A stretch of 64,000 nucleotides of DNA, from positions 1-64,000 of the forward strand of contig JARFXP010000002.1 in the NCBI GenBank assembly GCA_029194675.1. Direction: 5' to 3'. The translations under genes and the position numbers were made by a program. This document shows positions 2,568-42,099 of the stretch, one piece after another; the first letter of the stretch is position 1, and every line of letters begins with the position of its first letter. Origin of the DNA: Nitrospira sp. Lineage in GTDB: Bacteria; Nitrospirota; Nitrospiria; Nitrospirales; Nitrospiraceae. A model generated the notes under the pieces. It saw only the letters and a list, made by a program, of their open reading frames with translations. It had not been told where the DNA came from and made no database searches.

Positions 2568-2826
2568 CCTTGATCAAGCACGTACTATTGTACCGGGATA
2601 GGTCCAGAACATGAAGGGCGGGGAGGTGGAAGATTCTGCTGCGCCGGTTGTCCGGCAATGGCCCCGTCAATAGCCGGCGGCGTGAGGCTGTAACAAATGG
2701 CGTCCATTATTGACGACCCAGCTCACCCTGTGCTTAATAGAGCTGGGGATATGGCTTATTTATACCTACGTTTATCCACCAGGTCTCTTGCCTCTCCGCT
2801 CACTTCGCACCGAAAGGCCTGAATCC

Positions 2827-4767
2827 ATGTGCGGCATTCTCGGGCGGTTCTATCGACAACCGGCTCACCGATCGTCTTTTACGAAGAATGACTTAATCAC
2901 ATTGGCCCACCGTGGCCCTGATGGATCCGGTGTGTACACCGATTCTCATATCCAGTTCGGACACACTCGGCTCGCCATCATTGATTTGACCGAAGGCGGG
3001 CATCAGCCAATGACCTACGAGCATGGCCGCTATGTCATGACGTACAACGGCGAGGTCTATAACTATCTCGAAGTTCGCGCGGAACTCCAAACCAAGGGCG
3101 AACGGTTTGTCACTAATTCCGATACCGAAGTTCTCCTGTCGGCGTACAAGGTCTGGGGACGCGAGTGTGTGTCGCATTTTCGTGGGATGTTTGCGTTCGC
3201 ATTGTGGGATCGAAGAGAGAAAAGCCTTTTCCTGGCGCGCGATCGCTGCGGAGAAAAACCTCTTTTCTATCACAGAGATAATCAGTGTCTCATGTTTGCT
3301 TCGGAACTAAAGGGACTCCTGCCGATGCTGGCATCACGCCCCGCGCTTGATCCGTCGGTAGTGGATATGTACCTGCACTATCAGTATGTTCCTGAGCCGC
3401 TGAGCCTGCTTCAAGGTGTGCAGAAAATTCCGGCAGGTCATACGCTCATGTTGTCGCTCGACAACTGGTTTGCCGAACCGATGCGCTATTGGAGTGTAGA
3501 GGAGCCGCCGAAAATCAGCGGCTTGCCGATGGATAGTCCCGGTATGCTGCGTTGCATTCGTGAAGCCCTGGAAGAGGCGGTAAAGTTGACTCTGCGTTCC
3601 GATGTGCCTGTAGGAGTAGCGCTGTCCGGTGGGATCGATTCCGCGGCCATTGCCGCTCTGGCGCAACAACACTCCTCCGAACCGTTACACGCATTTTCCG
3701 TCGGGTATCCTGGCCGTCCTCCTTATGATGAGCGCGAGCAAGCGCGCCGTTTGGCTGAGCAGTTGGGCATGATCGTCCACGAGGTGGAGTTACCTGTCGA
3801 GAACTTCGTGGATTTTTTCCCACAGCTTGTGCGTGCCATGGATGAACCGATAGCGGACTCTGCGGCCTTCGGACATTACTCTGTGCCCAAGGCGGCAGCC
3901 GATCTGGGTATTAAGGTGCTGCTCAACGGTCTGGGTGCTGACGAGCTTTTCTGGGGGTATGGTTGGGTCACGCAGGCCTTGACCACTAGCCAGATCCTGG
4001 CAACTTCGCCGATGTTGAATGCAATCATCCCTCTGACGGCTTCACCAGGCCTGCAGCGATTTCTCGGTACAATGATGTGCTATCCTCGTGCTCCTTCCCT
4101 GTGTCAGCGCTGGGCCTCGTTGTTGTATGGAGTGGGAACCTTGCCGAAGCCGGTTCAGCAGCTGCACTTTTATGCGGCCGATCTCATTTTCAGAGAGACT
4201 TTTGATATTAAGCACGGTGCCTATGGTCCAGCCATGCGCACGATCAGCGAGCAGAATCCGTTCAGACCGACTGATATCGGCCCACGCAACGTGGAGCAAA
4301 TGCCGGCCGCGGTCATCCGGATGCTGTTCGACACGTGGCTTGTGTCCAATTGTCTCTCACTGGGAGATCGTGTGAGCATGAGTGTAGGTGTGGAAACACG
4401 CTTTCCATTCCTTGATGTGGGACTCATTGAACTTGTCATGGCGTTGCGCAGCAAGCAGCATGATCATACGTTATGGCACAAAGCTTGGTTGCGCGGGGCT
4501 TTGAAGGGTCTTCTCCCCGAGGAAGTGCTGAGGCGGAGAAAAACCGGCTTCCAACCTCCGACATGGAAATGGTTATCGGGCGTCGTCGCGCGTTATGGTA
4601 ACAATCTGTACGAAAACAGCCTAACGAGAGCCGGTATCCTGAATAGCGCGAAAATTGATCATGTTCTGGAGATGTCTAAACGGCGCTTGTCGGACCTCTA
4701 TTTCGCCTATAAGCTGGTTCTGCTTGAAGAATGGCACAAGAGCGTGGTAGAGGCCGATAGTTCGTAA
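2827..4767 (+). CDS. asnB: Asparagine synthetase (glutamine-hydrolysing)
   Basis: The start at 2827 is fixed by biology: class II amidotransferases need Cys at position 2, and this ORF reads MCGILGRFY from there even though the frame is open upstream. The 646-aa protein has the N-terminal glutaminase domain (RLAIIDLTEGGHQPM, YNGEVYNY, SDTEVLL) and a C-terminal synthetase domain with the PP-loop LSGGIDSAA (~266) and later GLGADELFWGY. It makes Asn, or amidates a related carboxylate, from Asp, Gln and ATP. Length fits the long AsnB group often found in polysaccharide/exosortase loci. It is a single gene with >250 nt of upstream sequence. The intact Cys2 argues against a lasso cyclase. Confidence 0.9.
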   Translation: MCGILGRFYRQPAHRSSFTKNDLITLAHRGPDGSGVYTDSHIQFGHTRLAIIDLTEGGHQPMTYEHGRYVMTYNGEVYNYLEVRAELQTKGERFVTNSDTEVLLSAYKVWGRECVSHFRGMFAFALWDRREKSLFLARDRCGEKPLFYHRDNQCLMFASELKGLLPMLASRPALDPSVVDMYLHYQYVPEPLSLLQGVQKIPAGHTLMLSLDNWFAEPMRYWSVEEPPKISGLPMDSPGMLRCIREALEEAVKLTLRSDVPVGVALSGGIDSAAIAALAQQHSSEPLHAFSVGYPGRPPYDEREQARRLAEQLGMIVHEVELPVENFVDFFPQLVRAMDEPIADSAAFGHYSVPKAAADLGIKVLLNGLGADELFWGYGWVTQALTTSQILATSPMLNAIIPLTASPGLQRFLGTMMCYPRAPSLCQRWASLLYGVGTLPKPVQQLHFYAADLIFRETFDIKHGAYGPAMRTISEQNPFRPTDIGPRNVEQMPAAVIRMLFDTWLVSNCLSLGDRVSMSVGVETRFPFLDVGLIELVMALRSKQHDHTLWHKAWLRGALKGLLPEEVLRRRKTGFQPPTWKWLSGVVARYGNNLYENSLTRAGILNSAKIDHVLEMSKRRLSDLYFAYKLVLLEEWHKSVVEADSS

Positions 4768-34965: not shown

Positions 34966-35619
34966 CTATGGAGTTTGCACTGATCGGCCTCTTCCCTGAG
35001 CCAGCTTTATTTTCAGTTCTTCCAACTCGGCTTCTCGCTGAATCAACTGGTCTTTCACCTCTGCTAGTTCGGCCATGCGACGCTGAAGTTCCTCCCGGAT
35101 CTGCGTGAGTATTTCTTCGCGTTCGCTGAGCTGCTGCTGCAGAGTCGCCAGCTTAGAGCCTGTTTCCACCGCTTGAGACTGCAGTTGGGTCAACTTCTTC
35201 AGGTCTTCGGTCACTTGAGTGGAGGAGTTCCATCCAAAATACATCAGGATCGTCATGATCACGAAGACGACCATTCCCAAGGCCCACCCGAATGATGTGG
35301 CAGGTGGGGATGACGGTGGGAAGAGGTGATTCATCCATTCGCCCGGCTCAAGACTTGGTTTGGAGCGTGATTGGGTTTCTGACTCAGTGGCGGGGGGCGA
35401 CACACGAGACGACAGAATCCTATTTTTTAGGGTTCGGGGAGGAGTCGTGATGATGAGCCCGAACGGCAACGTCACTGCTACCGACTGATACCCTTTCAGC
35501 CTCGTGCGGCAGGGGATACATCCTGCGAGCAGATGAGCCTCCAGGGCCTGTCGCTCAACCCGTTCAAGCGCTCCGACCGCGTAGAGAGGAACAGCGGCTT
35601 CTAACTCGTTATGTGTCAT
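34966..35619 (-). CDS. Anti-sigma factor-like membrane protein with coiled coil
   Basis: The gene overlaps the sigma gene by 4 nt (ATGA). The 217-aa product starts with an anti-sigma domain (ELEAAVPLYAVGALERVERQ, then LEAHLLAGCIPCRTRL). It has one transmembrane helix (GWALGMVVFVIMTILMYFGW, ~109-128) and a long C-terminal coiled coil (LQQQLSEREEILTQIREELQ ...). The H-x4-C-x2-C spacing differs from the classical zinc anti-sigma HxxxCxxC. By family it holds the ECF sigma factor at the membrane until a signal. The coiled coil would lie in the periplasm and may be the sensor part. Confidence 0.75.
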   Translation of the reverse strand: MTHNELEAAVPLYAVGALERVERQALEAHLLAGCIPCRTRLKGYQSVAVTLPFGLIITTPPRTLKNRILSSRVSPPATESETQSRSKPSLEPGEWMNHLFPPSSPPATSFGWALGMVVFVIMTILMYFGWNSSTQVTEDLKKLTQLQSQAVETGSKLATLQQQLSEREEILTQIREELQRRMAELAEVKDQLIQREAELEELKIKLAQGRGRSVQTP

Positions 35620-36221
35620 ACCGCTTCATCTTCTTCCCAAGATGATTGCAATGATTCGAGCAGTTGCGACATGCCGAGGGCGATGCAGGTCTTCACCGCC
35701 TCCACCGGCTGATTAAGCTGCGCCGCGATCTCCGCATCGGGAAAGCCCTCATAGTAAGCCAACTCAATCACCTGCTGCTGGACGTGCGGCAAGCTCACCC
35801 ACGCCTCTCGGACTAGATTTCGCAGTTCTTGGTCGGCCGGTGTATCAAAAGTATCGGAACTTCGGTCGGCAACTTGGCTTGTCTGGCCGTCATCAAGGGA
35901 CGAGGCCATCTGGCGGAGGGTACGAGGACCGCGTGCCCGCAATCGATCGATAGCCCGGTTGCGGGTCAGTGTAATGAGCCAGGCGATGGGGGTGCCTCGA
36001 CCGACATCGTAGCGAACGACCTTTCTCCAGACATTGAGGTAGATCTCTTGAAGCACGTCCGCTGCTTCTTCACGGTTGCCGAGGATGCGCAGTGCCAGGC
36101 TGAACAGCACGGTACTGGATTGATCGTAGAGCTGGTTAAAGGCGTGGACCTCGCCTTTGGCGACTCGGGCCACGAGTGTAGGGTCAATGGCCGAGGCGAC
36201 GAGTTGAGAAGATGTCTCCAT
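35616..36221 (-). CDS. ECF-family RNA polymerase sigma factor
   Basis: From ATG 36221 the 201-aa protein has region 2 (FNQLYDQSSTVLFSLALRIL, EAADVLQEIYLNVWRKVVRY) with the WLITLTRNRAIDRLRAR -10-binding part. Region 4 follows (LPHVQQQVIELAYYEGFPDA, EIAAQLNQPVEAVKTCIALG), where the HTH reads the -35. This is the SigK/ECF group with a membrane anti-sigma partner encoded directly downstream. Its promoter targets are unknown; the RiPP-like cluster begins 128 nt upstream on the same strand, so co-transcription or regulation is possible. The upstream ATG at 36290 has no better support. Confidence 0.88.
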   Translation of the reverse strand: METSSQLVASAIDPTLVARVAKGEVHAFNQLYDQSSTVLFSLALRILGNREEAADVLQEIYLNVWRKVVRYDVGRGTPIAWLITLTRNRAIDRLRARGPRTLRQMASSLDDGQTSQVADRSSDTFDTPADQELRNLVREAWVSLPHVQQQVIELAYYEGFPDAEIAAQLNQPVEAVKTCIALGMSQLLESLQSSWEEDEAV

Positions 36222-36349
36222 AGAACGTTGCTTGTGGTGATTGAGGTGATGATCCGTGAACCGGTCACCACTATAGCACTCGCAATGCACTCGACGAAGA
36301 ATTCGCGCAAAAGGATACGCGGGATTGTGGTCTGCTCAGAACATGAAAT

Positions 36350-37549
36350 CTATCGGCGGATGGATGAGCTCGGTCGTGTGGCAACGATGGTGCCGATCCA
36401 TGCGACGGCACAGCGAAGGCCCTCAGCCCCTATACGGAAGAATCTTGCGATATAGGAGCCGATGAGACTCGTACGAGTGGGCGCTCCATATCGCCGCGTC
36501 ATGTATTGGGCAGAGGGAAAGAGGAGTGCAGCGAGGTACCGGAATTGTTGGTGAAGGCTTCCAAGAGAACACAGAAGCACAAGCTCTTCTCGTCCGCTGA
36601 GAGACGACCGAGTCAGGATCTGATTGCAGACCATCAACGACGAAGGCGAAGAATCGTCGCGTACGTGCCCGGCGAACTGGCTGGCCACTACTTCAGGCAC
36701 GGGCGAATGAAAAGCTTCCGTCACGATCGTGAGAACGTCACAGACCGCCTGAGTTTGCCCCATGAGCCGCACCTGATTCATGAAGATGTTCCAGTTGAAC
36801 GTTGCGCCATGCCGCTGGATCACGGTATCCAACTCATAAAACCACAGGAGCGGAGCCTGCCGCCCTTTATGATGCAGGTGAAGGCAGAGATGGAGAAGAA
36901 GGTCTTCATTGCTAAGGACCCAGGTATTGACCCCTGCCCATTGCTGTCTCCTGACCCGTCCCCATACCGGTTCCATGGCGGCAGCGCCGATAAACGGCGG
37001 GTAAGCCAGAGTCCAATGAGGTTCAACAAGGAAACCATGATGCGGATGAACAAACTCCAGTGAATAGGAGAAGGTTTCGAGAAAACCAGGCCGATGCTCA
37101 TGGGGCGTATAGGCAAGGTGCTGAAAGATGCCCTTGATGGCAGAGAGATCCTCACGATGAACCAAGAAGTCCAGGTCATCCATCTGCCGGGTCGAGCAAT
37201 CATCGTACAGGTGCTTAGCCAACGCCGGCCCTCGAATCGGAACGCAGGCAATACCCTGCTGCTCACACGAGGCCAGAATATTTCGGAGTTCTTTTGCCAA
37301 CAGTGAATGCCAGGCTGCGTGCAGGGCCACCTGTTGCTTGAGAACATTTAGTAACTGGAGAGGGATCTTATGCCGGTTGGCAGGATGACTGAGCCAACAA
37401 AGGAGGAGAGGAGCTATGCGTTGCGTGATGGCTTCTTCAACGATGGTCTCCCAAGAATCGTGTGGGACTAGGGCAGGCTGGTTCTTTTCAGACGAGGTAT
37501 CCGTCAGAAGGGCCATCAGAAAAGGATGCACGAACGGCAGGGTCAACAT
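36350..37549 (-). CDS. Nucleotidyltransferase family protein (PF14907-like)
   Basis: The 399-aa protein carries RQMDDLDFLVHREDL (~121-135), the D-x-D-type site of the NTP_transf_5 family. It is preceded by VPIRGPALAKHLYDD, the family's (L)KG-like segment, and followed by a pattern (SLEFVHPHHGFLVEPHWTLA) typical of this group. Members often sit in lasso-peptide and other RiPP clusters, where a role in peptide or phosphate modification is suspected but mostly unproven. It overlaps the kinase-like gene by 7 nt, so it is translationally coupled and is the last gene of the cluster. Confidence 0.75.
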   Translation of the reverse strand: MLTLPFVHPFLMALLTDTSSEKNQPALVPHDSWETIVEEAITQRIAPLLLCWLSHPANRHKIPLQLLNVLKQQVALHAAWHSLLAKELRNILASCEQQGIACVPIRGPALAKHLYDDCSTRQMDDLDFLVHREDLSAIKGIFQHLAYTPHEHRPGFLETFSYSLEFVHPHHGFLVEPHWTLAYPPFIGAAAMEPVWGRVRRQQWAGVNTWVLSNEDLLLHLCLHLHHKGRQAPLLWFYELDTVIQRHGATFNWNIFMNQVRLMGQTQAVCDVLTIVTEAFHSPVPEVVASQFAGHVRDDSSPSSLMVCNQILTRSSLSGREELVLLCSLGSLHQQFRYLAALLFPSAQYMTRRYGAPTRTSLIGSYIARFFRIGAEGLRCAVAWIGTIVATRPSSSIRR

Positions 37550-38544
37550 GATTTTCTCAGATCGTGGAGAATGCCCGCCCGCACGTGGGGCAGAGTCTCG
37601 AATGAGTCCGGAATGGTCAATCGGCGAACGGGGACCTGAGTGACGAGATGATGAAGAAAGTCGAATTCTCGGGTCAACATGGATTGGTCTTCAATATCCA
37701 GTTTGAACGCCAGCGAGAGGAGCGTCATGAGGGCTTCCCGCTGAGCAAGAGTCGGCCGCTCAAGAGTGATGGCTGAGGCAGAATGTGGCGGGCTGCTTGG
37801 TTCGATCACGTAGATCCCGGCTAACGAAATGGCGGAAGGGCACATGGGTGTGGCGGAGACAGCGGCGGTGAAACGCTGTTTGGGAGAGTAGTGCGCCACC
37901 GGCGCAGAAGCTCCTGTTGTGCCGAAGAGAGCGGCGATTGCATCATCCCAAAGCCTGAGCCCAGGATAAGTGGGGATCGTGACGATGTCTTCGCCGCATC
38001 TATCGAGGACGACACAATCATCGGCTAATACGGAATATCCCGCGGAGAGAAAACTCGCCGCCAAGGTGGATTTCCCGCTTCCGGTCGGACCGAGGAACGC
38101 ACAGGCTCCATAGGGTGTGGCGACCGCGGCTCCATGCAACACCTCACTCCCTCGATAGTTCAGCACGAGGGGGAGTACTTGGTCCAAAAGCAAATGGTTC
38201 ACGGTGTGAGCAGGTATATGCCGATGCGGGATGCAGCGGATGGAACTGTCCGATGGAGAGAACACAAAACCGGCCAGATCGGGGAAGTGCAAGAGATAGT
38301 TTGAGGCGATCTTGGCGCAGCGCAACCAGGGTGTGCCGTCTGCCAGCGACACGGTCAAGTACCAGGATGTGGGCGTAGGAATGTGTTCCTCAGATGAGAC
38401 AAACTCAATGTGCAGGTCAGTGGGTTCTCCATCATTTGGAGCTGCGGACTGCTCCAATTCATGCAGCGGCGAGCTACAACTGAGAATACGGCCGTACGCG
38501 CGATACCGCACGCCGGAGTTCCGCAGAAGTGCCTCAACAGTCAT
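37543..38544 (-). CDS. HPr-kinase-like P-loop protein
   Basis: I start at ATG 38544, which overlaps the methyltransferase stop (ATGA); the open frame further upstream is a shadow. The 333-aa protein has GAAVATPYGACAFLGPTGSG-type sequence with Walker A GPTGSGKST (~152-160), then LADDCVVLD (Walker B-like) and IPTYPGLRLWDDAI, as in HprK-related kinases. It lacks the N-terminal domain and HPr-interaction loop of true HprK. Homologues in lasso clusters phosphorylate a Ser of the precursor. Here the core has internal Ser but does not end in Ser, so the target is uncertain. Confidence 0.75.
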   Translation of the reverse strand: MTVEALLRNSGVRYRAYGRILSCSSPLHELEQSAAPNDGEPTDLHIEFVSSEEHIPTPTSWYLTVSLADGTPWLRCAKIASNYLLHFPDLAGFVFSPSDSSIRCIPHRHIPAHTVNHLLLDQVLPLVLNYRGSEVLHGAAVATPYGACAFLGPTGSGKSTLAASFLSAGYSVLADDCVVLDRCGEDIVTIPTYPGLRLWDDAIAALFGTTGASAPVAHYSPKQRFTAAVSATPMCPSAISLAGIYVIEPSSPPHSASAITLERPTLAQREALMTLLSLAFKLDIEDQSMLTREFDFLHHLVTQVPVRRLTIPDSFETLPHVRAGILHDLRKSC

Positions 38545-39686
38545 GCGGAATACCTGGTGACCACTTCGGCAACAAACGTGGCTGCGCTGGAGAGCGAAGC
38601 AAAGAGGGTTGGGTGGCGACGAAGAACTTCCTGCTCGATTTGCGCTAACGGCCGCTCTCCATCGCAGAGCTTCAGCACGGTGAGGCGTGCGACGCCCCAT
38701 GGGGTGAGAGTCGGGACGAAGGCTGGGTGAGTGCGCTGCAAATCTTCCCGGGAGATGAGCATGCCTTTGAGCGTGCTATGAGTAAAGCGAATAGGTTCTG
38801 GTGCCGATGGTTTATTCTTTTGGATTTCAATTGTCCACGTGACGGCAGTTTGAACAGGAAGGATGTGCATGGTAACGGTCATGGAATCCCCCGTTTGGAC
38901 AGGAATCGGGCGGTCGATCGGAAAGAAGACGTTGCGCCGATCGATCCGGTGTTCGCTCAGTGGTGAATTGGTCATGGTGACTGAGGGAGACAGGTGAGCC
39001 ACGAACCAACAGCCCAGGCCATGCAGGGTCCCGGGTTTGCTAATCGACAACGTGCATTGGAAGTGAAGTGGCTGAGTACCTCCGACACTGGGGTCTATTG
39101 AGAGCGGTTCCATCGATGGTCCTAAGAGCTGCTCAGACATCAATTTGACCGGATAACCGGTGTTCGCCGCAATGGAGCGAGCCGGGCTGACGTCAAACCC
39201 CATGTGCGACTGGTTCCAGAATTCGACCTGCTGCCACAGGGGTTCCTGTTCTACGGGAGCGAGACAGAACGTGATGCGTTCAGGAATCGTCGCTCCGTTC
39301 GGTTTGAGAAACCGACGGCGGGCGTCACTGAAATAGTCAAAGAGGCCGGCTTCAAACCCGAAGTGTCCAATCTGGTCGGCGAGGATCACATCGGCCGGCT
39401 CAGGCAAATCGACATGTGTCGAAAGGTCTTTGATGAAACGAATATGGTCTGTCAATCCGTTGGCTTGACAGATCTCACGAGCTACTTCGATTAAGCCGGT
39501 CTCCTCGATTGAATAGACGCGCTTAGCCCCGGCTTCGCAGGCTAGAAGGCCAAGGATTCCGGTTCCGCTTCCGAGATCGACGACAACCGATCCCGGTACA
39601 ACCAATTCTCGAATGGCTTGACGAAATGCTGCGAGACGGATTTGGTCTTGAAGGTAATGGCGATGTTCGTCGACAACGAGTGACAA
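38541..39686 (-). CDS. SAM methyltransferase fused to a PqqD/RRE-like domain
   Basis: The start is TTG 39686 with GGGGA ~9 nt upstream. The N-terminal ~300 residues form a PRMT-like methyltransferase: motif I VVDLGSGTGILGLLACEAGA (~35-54), acidic loop YSIEETG, ILADQIGHFGFEAG and RRFLKPNGATIPERI. The double-Glu loop of arginine methyltransferases is replaced (DQIGHFGFEAG), so the acceptor may differ. Residues ~310-381 (FVPTLTPWGVARLTVLKLCD, GERPLAQIEQEVLRRHP, AATFVAEVVTRYSA) match the PqqD/RiPP-recognition pattern that binds leader peptides. It follows the precursor by 64 nt and overlaps the kinase gene. A leader-guided peptide methyltransferase is the natural inference. Confidence 0.75.
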   Translation of the reverse strand: MSLVVDEHRHYLQDQIRLAAFRQAIRELVVPGSVVVDLGSGTGILGLLACEAGAKRVYSIEETGLIEVAREICQANGLTDHIRFIKDLSTHVDLPEPADVILADQIGHFGFEAGLFDYFSDARRRFLKPNGATIPERITFCLAPVEQEPLWQQVEFWNQSHMGFDVSPARSIAANTGYPVKLMSEQLLGPSMEPLSIDPSVGGTQPLHFQCTLSISKPGTLHGLGCWFVAHLSPSVTMTNSPLSEHRIDRRNVFFPIDRPIPVQTGDSMTVTMHILPVQTAVTWTIEIQKNKPSAPEPIRFTHSTLKGMLISREDLQRTHPAFVPTLTPWGVARLTVLKLCDGERPLAQIEQEVLRRHPTLFASLSSAATFVAEVVTRYSA

Positions 39687-39750
39687 AGTGGAAGTCCCCG
39701 TATCAAAGATTGGATGTAGTTAACATAGAGTAAATTCTGTAACTGCTTGG

Positions 39751-39915
39751 CTAAAGGCACATCGCCATGAACATTCCCGGCATGCCATCCGGAAACCTTC
39801 CGCTCGGGCTGCCTTGAGTCAATTTAGTAACGTCGCCGTATTCTACAAGGGTCGGAGTGGTGTAGGGTTTTTTAGGAGAGGGCGTTTTTTGATCGAGGGT
39901 GGCTTTTTGTTCCAT
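39751..39915 (-). CDS. Lasso-peptide-like RiPP precursor, 54 aa
   Basis: ATG 39915 has GGGAGG 8 nt upstream; the longer open frame has no ribosome site. The leader carries Y18, P21, L23 and T33 before G35. That is exactly the Y(-17), P(-14), L(-12), T(-2), G(+1) spacing known for lasso leaders bound by RRE proteins. The core starts GSPSGRFPD, so Asp is residue 9, the right place for a nine-membered macrolactam. The rest (GMPGMFMAMCL) is rich in Met and ends Cys-Leu. Modification genes follow on the same strand, but no B2 protease or C cyclase is present nearby. The final structure is therefore uncertain. Confidence 0.7.
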   Translation of the reverse strand: MEQKATLDQKTPSPKKPYTTPTLVEYGDVTKLTQGSPSGRFPDGMPGMFMAMCL

Positions 39916-39941
39916 GGAGCGTCCCTCCCGTTGTTGCGGCG

Positions 39942-39975
39942 ATTGTACAGAACTCCTAGGGAGGGTCGCTAGGAG
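39942..39975 (-). promoter_or_regulatory. Candidate promoter/operator of the RiPP precursor
   Basis: On the minus strand a TACAAT -10-like hexamer (39942-39947) lies 27 nt before the start. It is preceded by a perfect inverted repeat CTCCTAG-N9-CTAGGAG (39953-39975) covering where the -35 would be. This is operator-like geometry, and no matching -35 consensus is seen, so an activator or an alternative sigma factor may be involved. The opposite side of this 250-nt gap serves the gene at 40168. Confidence 0.35.
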
Positions 39976-40167
39976 AAATATGCCCTGGTGGGACCATTGT
40001 TTGAGATTGACAGGAGGTTGTAATATTTCATATACATACTCGGTCTCCATCACGTCATGATCATGTCTCCGATAAGAGGATGTTCGAGAGTTCTTTGGTG
40101 TGATGCAAGAGAGAGAAACGGGTAAGTCAGGAACCAGGATGTTGGTCAATCACAAGGAGGCAGTCCA

Positions 40168-40962
40168 ATGAAGAGTGCGTTAACAATTATGTTTGGTGTA
40201 GCAGCCGTCGCGTTGGTCGCGGCGCCTCTCACCTCGTATGCGGGTGGAACGATCACTGGGAAGGTGACGTATGCTGGTAAGCCGGAGCAAAAAGAGTTCC
40301 TCTTTTCAAAGTTCCCGAATCCCAAGTTCTGCCCTAAGAACCCCAACAAGAGCTTGATGGATGGGGACAAGCGGTTTCTGAAACAGATCGAGGTTGGGAA
40401 AGACGGTGGTTTGAAGGGCGCGGTGGTTGCCGTGACCGATGTTGAAGACAAGGCGTTTGTGGACGGCTATGCCGGCACGGAAGTCACGGCCGCGTTCTGC
40501 GAATTTTTGCCGTTCAGCGGCATCGTCGTCAACACCCGTCCCTTCAAGGTGGAGAACACGGATGCTGACCCGGATGATCCTAAGTCTGTTCAGGGTGTGC
40601 TCCATAACCCCCATAGCTTTACCGTAAAGGGCTCGACTTCAGCAACCGGTTTCAACATCGGGCTTGCCAAGAAAGGCGACAAGCTTGATAAGCCGGTGAC
40701 CTTCCGTGGCGGCGCGGAAAAGGAAGGGTACTTCCGGTTACAGTGCGACCAGCATGAGTTCATGCAATCGTTCTTCCTGCCCGTGTCGAACCCGCATTTT
40801 GCCGTGGTGAAGGAGGATGGTTCCTTTGAGATCAAGGATGTCCCGGCCGGCAAACACAAAGTCATCGCCTGGCATCCTTTTGCCGGGAAGGCCAAGAAGG
40901 TAGAGTTTGAGGTCGATGTGGCCGATGGCGGCACCGCCAACCTCAAGGCTGAAATCAAGTAA
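40168..40962 (+). CDS. Exported carboxypeptidase-regulatory/cupredoxin-like protein
   Basis: ATG 40168 follows AAGGAGG. The 264-aa product has a signal peptide (FGVAAVALVAAPLTSYAG) and starts with TITGKVTYAGKPEQ, as in carboxypeptidase-regulatory-like (Ig-type) proteins. Later it has LQCDQHEFMQSFFLPVSNPH, which looks like a cupredoxin loop (C..H...M) able to bind copper, followed by SFEIKDVPAGKHKVIAWHP. Similar exported proteins accompany respiratory cytochromes in several lineages; the link here is by position ahead of the oxidase block. No catalytic function is assigned. A strong hairpin follows the gene. Confidence 0.65.
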   Translation: MKSALTIMFGVAAVALVAAPLTSYAGGTITGKVTYAGKPEQKEFLFSKFPNPKFCPKNPNKSLMDGDKRFLKQIEVGKDGGLKGAVVAVTDVEDKAFVDGYAGTEVTAAFCEFLPFSGIVVNTRPFKVENTDADPDDPKSVQGVLHNPHSFTVKGSTSATGFNIGLAKKGDKLDKPVTFRGGAEKEGYFRLQCDQHEFMQSFFLPVSNPHFAVVKEDGSFEIKDVPAGKHKVIAWHPFAGKAKKVEFEVDVADGGTANLKAEIK

Positions 40963-41118: not shown

Positions 41119-42099
41119 GTGTCACGAGAACTCTCACTCGCGGAAGTGTTCCAGCTTGGTTACTACTGGGAGACCAAGATTTTATTGACGGCCGTGAAGC
41201 TTGACCTGTTTTCCGCCATAGACGAAAAACCGAGAACAGCCAAGGATGTCGCGAGTCGACTTCAGGCTGATGAACCGACCCTCCGTCTCCTGTTGAACGC
41301 CCTCGTCGCGATGAAGTTATTGTCAAAGGAGGGCGACTTGTATGGCAACGCTTCGACGGCCCTGAAGCACCTCGTCCGGCATTCGGACCAGTACGTCGGC
41401 CATCTGCTCCTCTTGCACGATGCGGAGTGGAACAACTGGGGAAACTTGGAAGAGACGGTTCGAACCGGGCGACGGGCAGTCGATCGGCACGTCTTCGAGA
41501 CCGATCCGGAATTGGGAAGCAACGTGTTGGCGGTGCTCAATCGCATCGGACAGCAAAGCGGACCCGATCTTGCTAAACGGCTGAAGCTCGTGGGAAGCGA
41601 GCGGCTGTTGGATCTGGGCGGTGGCGCAGGAACCAACGCCATTGCCTTCTGCCAAGTGTACTCTGAATTGTGCGCGACGGTCTTTGATCTCCCGGCGACG
41701 TTAAAGCTGGCGGAAAAAATGGTCAAGGCCGCAGGGTTGGAATCACGAATTACACTGCATCCTGGTGATTTCAATAGAGATCAACTCGGGGGTCCGTACG
41801 ATGTGGTGCTGATGTCGGATATTCTTCACTATCAAACGTTCCAGCTGAATCAGGATCTGGTCAACAAGGCCTTCGTATCACTGGCGCCGGGGGGTCGGTT
41901 GATCATTAAGGATCGATTTCTGGACGAAACCGGCACCGGTCCGGCTTGGACGACGGCGTTCACGATCCATATTCTTGTGAATACGCAACACGGTAGTTGT
42001 TACAAATGCAGCGACGCGATGCGATGGTTGATTCAGTCGGGATTTGGCTCTGTCGTGGAATTGGAACAGACGGCTGTTGTTCAGGGTGTGAAGCCGTAA
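41119..42099 (+). CDS. O-methyltransferase-type SAM enzyme
   Basis: GTG 41119 is used, with AAGGG ~10 nt upstream. The 326-aa protein has an N-terminal winged-helix dimerisation domain (ELSLAEVFQLGYYWETKILL, DVASRLQADEPTLRLLLNAL). A Rossmann SAM domain follows: RLLDLGGGAGTNAIAF (motif I), CATVFDLPATLKLAEK, HPGDFNRDQLGGPYDVVLMS and LAPGGRLIIKDRFLDETGTG. This is the hydroxyindole/caffeate O-methyltransferase-like family, also used for quinone or carotenoid-type substrates. Its position at the head of a respiratory block makes a quinone or heme-related substrate conceivable, but nothing in the sequence fixes it. Confidence 0.8.
   Translation: MSRELSLAEVFQLGYYWETKILLTAVKLDLFSAIDEKPRTAKDVASRLQADEPTLRLLLNALVAMKLLSKEGDLYGNASTALKHLVRHSDQYVGHLLLLHDAEWNNWGNLEETVRTGRRAVDRHVFETDPELGSNVLAVLNRIGQQSGPDLAKRLKLVGSERLLDLGGGAGTNAIAFCQVYSELCATVFDLPATLKLAEKMVKAAGLESRITLHPGDFNRDQLGGPYDVVLMSDILHYQTFQLNQDLVNKAFVSLAPGGRLIIKDRFLDETGTGPAWTTAFTIHILVNTQHGSCYKCSDAMRWLIQSGFGSVVELEQTAVVQGVKP

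Follow-up and report, generated by a model that had tools for sequence, protein, structure and literature searches.

What matures a lasso-type precursor peptide whose gene adjoins tailoring genes and none for the enzymes that build the lasso? The question is raised by a 64,000-nucleotide stretch of Nitrospira sp. DNA (contig JARFXP010000002.1, positions 1 to 64,000; the whole stretch is called the window here), which contains the following genes:

39754..39915, minus strand: lasso-type precursor of 54 residues, MEQKATLDQKTPSPKKPYTTPTLVEYGDVTKLTQGSPSGRFPDGMPGMFMAMCL; the leader is residues 1-34 and the predicted core is GSPSGRFPDGMPGMFMAMCL (Gly1, Asp9)
38541..39686, minus strand: methyltransferase with a protein arginine methyltransferase (PRMT) fold (residues 2-310), a C-terminal domain of ~85 residues and a TTG start; assigned from PRMT homology and a structural model
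37543..38544, minus strand: HprK-like kinase; assigned from TIGR04352 and conserved catalytic residues
36350..37549, minus strand: PF14907 nucleotidyltransferase-like protein (Pfam 157.6 bits, cut-off 31.2)

In the established lasso pathway, the B1 protein binds the leader, the B2 protease removes it, and the C protein closes residue 1 onto an acidic residue (PMC8498205, PMC9266682, PMC7280977). The preliminary description of this locus found neither B2 nor C in the whole neighbourhood, which is correct, and proposed either that these enzymes act in trans or that the peptide follows a new maturation route. Both proteins exist elsewhere in the genome, which encodes one B2 and one precursor-less B1-B2-C operon orthologous to genes that stand beside the precursor in sister species. 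We propose, with a probability of about 0.86, that a lasso pathway was split in two by an ancestral rearrangement and that its halves act in trans; the new route finds no support and, with a lasso trio in the genome, is not needed.

As a lasso precursor we accepted a peptide with a YxxPxL leader, Thr at -2, Gly or a similar residue at +1, and Asp or Glu at positions 7-9, and the peptide of this species has this form, with Gly1 and Asp9. Numbered from Gly35 as +1, it carries Tyr at -17, Pro at -14, Leu at -12, Gly at -8, Thr at -2, and Asp at +9, so the leader positions named earlier (Y(-17), P(-14), L(-12), T(-2), G(+1)) and the core Asp at residue 9 all hold. The NCBIfam lasso leader model NF033521 scores the precursor at 27.6 bits (cut-off 19); across the whole genome it is the sole match above the cut-off, with the runner-up at 11.9 bits. 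Eighteen other genomes of the family keep the precursor at the equivalent position, and it is present in the relatives that keep the other genes, a check suggested in the preliminary description. A leader block, KKPYxxPTLxEYGxxAKLT, is common to the orthologues, and their cores have an Asp at position 8 or 9 or close to it. The core ends in Met-Cys-Leu, and the Cys-Leu ending is common to the close orthologues. For the predicted core less one water, the calculated [M+H]+ is 2070.87.

We searched the full genome of this species (G000; 5.2 Mb, 16 contigs, 99% complete) for B2 and C, as had been proposed, and found a single B1-B2-C operon on another contig:

G000 contig C3, ~734-737 kb: maturation trio of overlapping genes, B1 (leader-binding, PqqD-type, 94 residues), B2 (cysteine protease, 148 residues) and C (Asn-synthetase-type cyclase)

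B2, at ~736 kb, is the only PF13471 transglutaminase-like lasso protease in the genome (63.6 bits; B1 matches PF05402 with 67.7 bits; locus L010, 10130-10832), and its Cys86 and His120 are invariant. The C protein begins MSGLAG and keeps the ATP motif SGGLDSSS; because its start reads Met-Ser-Gly, the glutaminase cysteine (Cys2) is absent. The trio has no lasso-type leader near it. The genome holds one precursor without B and C and one B/C set without a precursor, each half once, and the genome-wide searches with PF13471, PF00733, and NF033521 reject the idea that the pathway is missing. One Asn-synthetase was found in the window (2710-4767), and we rejected it as the lasso cyclase: it starts MCG and keeps Cys2, and is thus an ordinary AsnB. 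We also rejected the idea that the C3 trio is an unrelated second lasso cluster, given its shared upstream lipoprotein, tetratricopeptide-repeat (TPR) and glycosyltransferase genes and its 51-81% identity, across B1, B2, and C, to the nearest unsplit clusters; a second G107 cluster reaches 36-37% for B1 and B2.

The relation of the two halves is revealed by the relatives. At least ten related Nitrospiraceae species (genomes G140, G135, G110, G145, G152, G066, G014, G172, G169, and G157) contain an uninterrupted row of B1, B2, C, precursor, methyltransferase, kinase, and PF14907 genes, usually with a glycosyltransferase-like gene before it and sigma and anti-sigma genes after it; orthology was assigned by identity and gene order. 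This species and three close relatives (G000, G073, G107, and G108) have all seven genes intact, but the row is interrupted precisely at the boundary between C and the precursor. The B1-B2-C half carries the old lipoprotein, TPR, and glycosyltransferase neighbours, and the precursor half carries the sigma, anti-sigma, and deaminase genes. Among the 175 genomes of the family, 20 encode both a close C protein and a close methyltransferase, 2 the C protein alone, 1 the methyltransferase alone (a gene fragment at a contig end), and 152 neither (p = 5e-23, a value that ignores shared ancestry). Clustering of the lasso A, B, and C genes is usual but chemically not required. Judged from its genes, this is a lasso pathway in every respect except clustering, as the halves lie on two contigs in the four genomes. 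Outside the phylum, a relative of the cassette is present in a Candidatus Binataceae metagenome-assembled genome (MAG; L019, 6933-13398), comprising a pair of B1-like genes, C, a methyltransferase of 49% identity, a precursor-like open reading frame, a kinase, and PF14907.

The cut itself can be placed with three elements immediately upstream of the precursor:

39916..39982, minus strand: promoter-like block, CATATT..CTAGC-N19/20-TACAAT, upstream of the precursor, from an alignment of 11 split and unsplit genomes
39983..40167: junction DNA next to DN1, which lies between the desaturase gene and DN1 in unsplit species
40168..40962, plus strand: exported-protein gene DN1, the junction marker, which in unsplit species adjoins the desaturase gene and not the precursor

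In the unsplit genomes, the desaturase gene and DN1 stand back to back, ~340-360 bp apart. All four split genomes instead show the partners exchanged, with C joined to the desaturase gene and DN1 to the precursor. A simple inversion was considered first and set aside after mapping onto the nearly complete genome G116: its block at 3378-3604 kb is found on C2 of this species with the ends joined at the precursor-DN1 junction, and C3 carries the fused flanking DNA. Orientation is preserved both where the ends were joined and where the flanks were fused, so the comparison points to a block of ~225 kb that was excised and moved rather than simply inverted. A 13-bp sequence from the old spacer between C and the precursor, GCATATTTCTCCT, occurs at each of the new junctions in G073 and G107, as does a near-identical form in G108, whereas G000 has it on the precursor side only; its presence at both junctions is consistent with the trace expected of a staggered break. 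At the C stop codon there is a single inverted-repeat unit of ~124 bp (L010 8076-8199, equal to G000:C3:734076-734199), which may be the remains of an insertion sequence at the rearrangement junction. This repeat has one genomic copy in G000, and we therefore do not ascribe the split to an insertion sequence. Near the precursor half, an O-methyltransferase gene (PF00891; window 41119-42099, opposite strand) is conserved by DN1 in the split genomes and is probably unrelated.

The breakpoint coincides with the upstream edge of the promoter-like block of the precursor, and each half therefore kept a plausible promoter. On the B1 side, a TTGACA-17-TATCGT match lies 37 bp upstream of the gene; both this match and the block by the precursor are pattern evidence, and such matches are no more numerous in that region than expected by chance. 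We infer that the location of the break, between two promoter-driven units, allowed the split to be tolerated. Since all four split genomes share the junctions, comparisons among them postdate the split. The ratio of nonsynonymous to synonymous substitution rates (dN/dS) among the four is 0.16-0.36 for B1, B2, and C (0.13-0.51 in unsplit relatives) and 0.10-0.44 for the methyltransferase, kinase, and PF14907 genes, close to the unsplit relatives. Both halves remain under purifying selection, which we take as evidence that both still work.

These values bear on the explanation that survives best beside the split pathway, namely that the locus is a relic whose halves no longer cooperate and are both decaying. 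We regard it as unlikely, since all seven reading frames remain open across the four split genomes, whose synonymous-site divergence is ~0.06-0.4, dN/dS is well below 1 for the six genes other than the precursor, and the precursors retain the leader, the core Asp, and the C-terminal Cys-Leu, although copies do decay in other genomes: the C protein of G125 (L082 8732-10195) has no ATP-motif segment, G162 (L108) has a truncated C and no B1 or B2, and G069 (L113 7412-7651) retains, between the glycosyltransferase and sigma genes, only a C-terminal remnant of PF14907, the lasso cassette having probably been lost. It is less probable still, to the point of being very unlikely, that the methyltransferase, kinase, and PF14907 protein alone mature the peptide by a new lasso-independent route; they are the sole adjacent genes in this species and distant orthologous cores do not start with Gly, but B1, B2, and C lie directly upstream of the precursor in the ten or more unsplit relatives and are under selection in this clade. 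An assembly artefact or chimeric contig can practically be dismissed even with draft assemblies, as each junction is internal to a long contig (C2, 1.28 Mb; C3, 0.76 Mb) and both recur in four separately assembled species; in G107, the two halves are on different contigs, of 0.41 and 0.38 Mb.

Several points nevertheless weigh against a split lasso pathway acting in trans. In more distant orthologues of the precursor, position +1 is occupied by Lys, Glu, His, Thr, or Ser, which are unusual there for lasso cyclases. The conserved cluster genes include none that we recognised as encoding a transporter or isopeptidase, and most of the genomes compared are drafts or MAGs. Function in trans is deduced from conservation, and the four split genomes represent one event. 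Among the precursors of other genera (L089, L090, L092, L106, and L108), the place of Gly1 is taken by Lys, Glu, or His or falls in an ambiguous register, with the Asp kept; either these cores use an unusual N-terminal residue or they are cleaved at a different site.

If the halves do cooperate, B1, and perhaps also the tail of the methyltransferase, would bind the YxxPxL leader, and the core would be modified by the methyltransferase and the kinase, possibly together with the PF14907 protein. Diffusing B2 would then cleave after Gln(-1), and C would close the ring around the threaded tail by linking the amine of Gly1 to the side chain of Asp9. The tailoring genes had been described as a translationally coupled set that follows the precursor. 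The stop and start codons of the methyltransferase, kinase, and PF14907 genes do overlap (the probable ATG of the kinase at 38544 overlaps the methyltransferase stop codon), but ~65 bp separates the precursor from the methyltransferase gene.

The methyltransferase matches PRMT at E 1.2e-38 (hmmsearch), and its structural model, with a Rossmann domain and a beta-barrel, superimposes on PRMTs with Z ~32 and a root-mean-square deviation of ~2.5 Å over ~300 residues. In an alignment to PRMT2, the Arg-binding double-E and THW loops are not kept: SEWMG is replaced by ADQIG and the THW region by IDRR, although a shifted second Glu is possible. Asp104-Gln105 is invariant in 20 orthologues. Because the Arg-binding motifs are not kept and most orthologous cores have no Arg, we judged arginine unlikely as the target, and the enzyme is likely to methylate something else. 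The preliminary description had called this protein a fusion of a methyltransferase with a RiPP recognition element (RRE; RiPP, ribosomally synthesized and post-translationally modified peptide). The methyltransferase is real; the RRE part is weakly supported, with no match in sequence-profile searches or in a profile comparison with B1. Three helices are predicted in the tail, with weak strands, and its top Foldseek match is PqqD 3g2b (E 0.016, 25% identity), lasso B1 6jx3 being at E 1.1. Such a three-helix tail agrees with an RRE/PqqD-like domain without proving one.

The other two tailoring genes are as they had been described. The kinase lies under the cut-off of TIGR04352 (E 1.7e-6), but its His, P-loop Lys, and Asp-Asp, the residues of HprK-type lasso kinases, are conserved in 20 of 20 sequences; the C-terminal Ser that is the substrate of PadeK-like kinases is not present in the core. 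The PF14907 gene is well above its Pfam cut-off and has a single copy in the genome. We hold only tentatively, at slightly less than even odds, the fuller proposal that the whole maturation machinery is remote, that a PRMT-derived, leader-binding methyltransferase that has ceased to methylate Arg installs an undescribed core modification, and that the kinase does not use a C-terminal Ser.

Beyond the PF14907 gene lie two resident neighbours, present also where the cassette is absent:

35616..36290, minus strand: extracytoplasmic function (ECF) sigma factor
34966-35619: anti-sigma-like gene, after the ECF sigma factor

In G116 (L110 4934-11040; also L111 and L112), the same site between the glycosyltransferase and sigma genes holds an HprK-like kinase, PF14907, three radical-SAM-like genes, and no lasso genes; relatives of the kinase and PF14907 are also found there in G053 and G092. 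The site thus seems to swap RiPP-like cassettes. G131 (L093, L094) has the precursor, B1, C, and tailoring genes with 158 bp between B1 and C and no B2; the one PF13471 protein of that genome is encoded on its own ~500 kb away, next to purL/purF-like genes, and G131 may be another, independent instance of remote maturation.

Mining for precursors beside B and C shows half a pathway at either locus in this clade, and adjacency-based mining would discard the orphan precursor or mistake it for new chemistry. Together, the four split species and their unsplit sisters provide a natural experiment on the need for RiPP gene clustering. In the open-licence literature, we found no direct precedent for Nitrospira lasso peptides, split lasso clusters, or orphan lasso precursors, no report of a Nitrospira lasso product, and no description of a PRMT-fold lasso-tailoring methyltransferase.

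The closest known systems are the paeninodin and pseudomycoidin clusters, which also combine a lasso precursor, B and C proteins, and an HprK-type kinase (PadeK/PsmK) with the His-Lys-Asp-Asp motif (PMC9266682, PMC8498205); a nucleotidyltransferase-like protein, PsmN, is present in the latter, a likeness by description. Lasso kinases, for which this motif is described (PMC9266682), act on the linear precursor. Those clusters are contiguous and their kinases act on a C-terminal Ser, whereas the present cluster is split, has an additional PRMT-fold methyltransferase, and encodes a core with a Cys-Leu ending. Methylation of lasso peptides dependent on S-adenosylmethionine is known from StspM, at the C-terminal carboxyl, and from TceM/LihM, at an aspartimide (PMC9266682); the model of StspM was based on an O-methyltransferase, and TceM/LihM are homologous to PIMT, unlike the PRMT fold with an extra C-terminal domain seen here. 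Unclustered proteases of lanthipeptides likewise show RiPP maturation finished by enzymes encoded elsewhere (PMC8960859), although that case concerns another RiPP class and a remote protease only. A lasso pathway that needs a remotely encoded enzyme is already known in citrulassin, with its peptidyl arginine deiminase (PMC9266682). In citrulassin, however, a single tailoring enzyme is remote, whereas here the whole B1-B2-C machinery is encoded far from the precursor.

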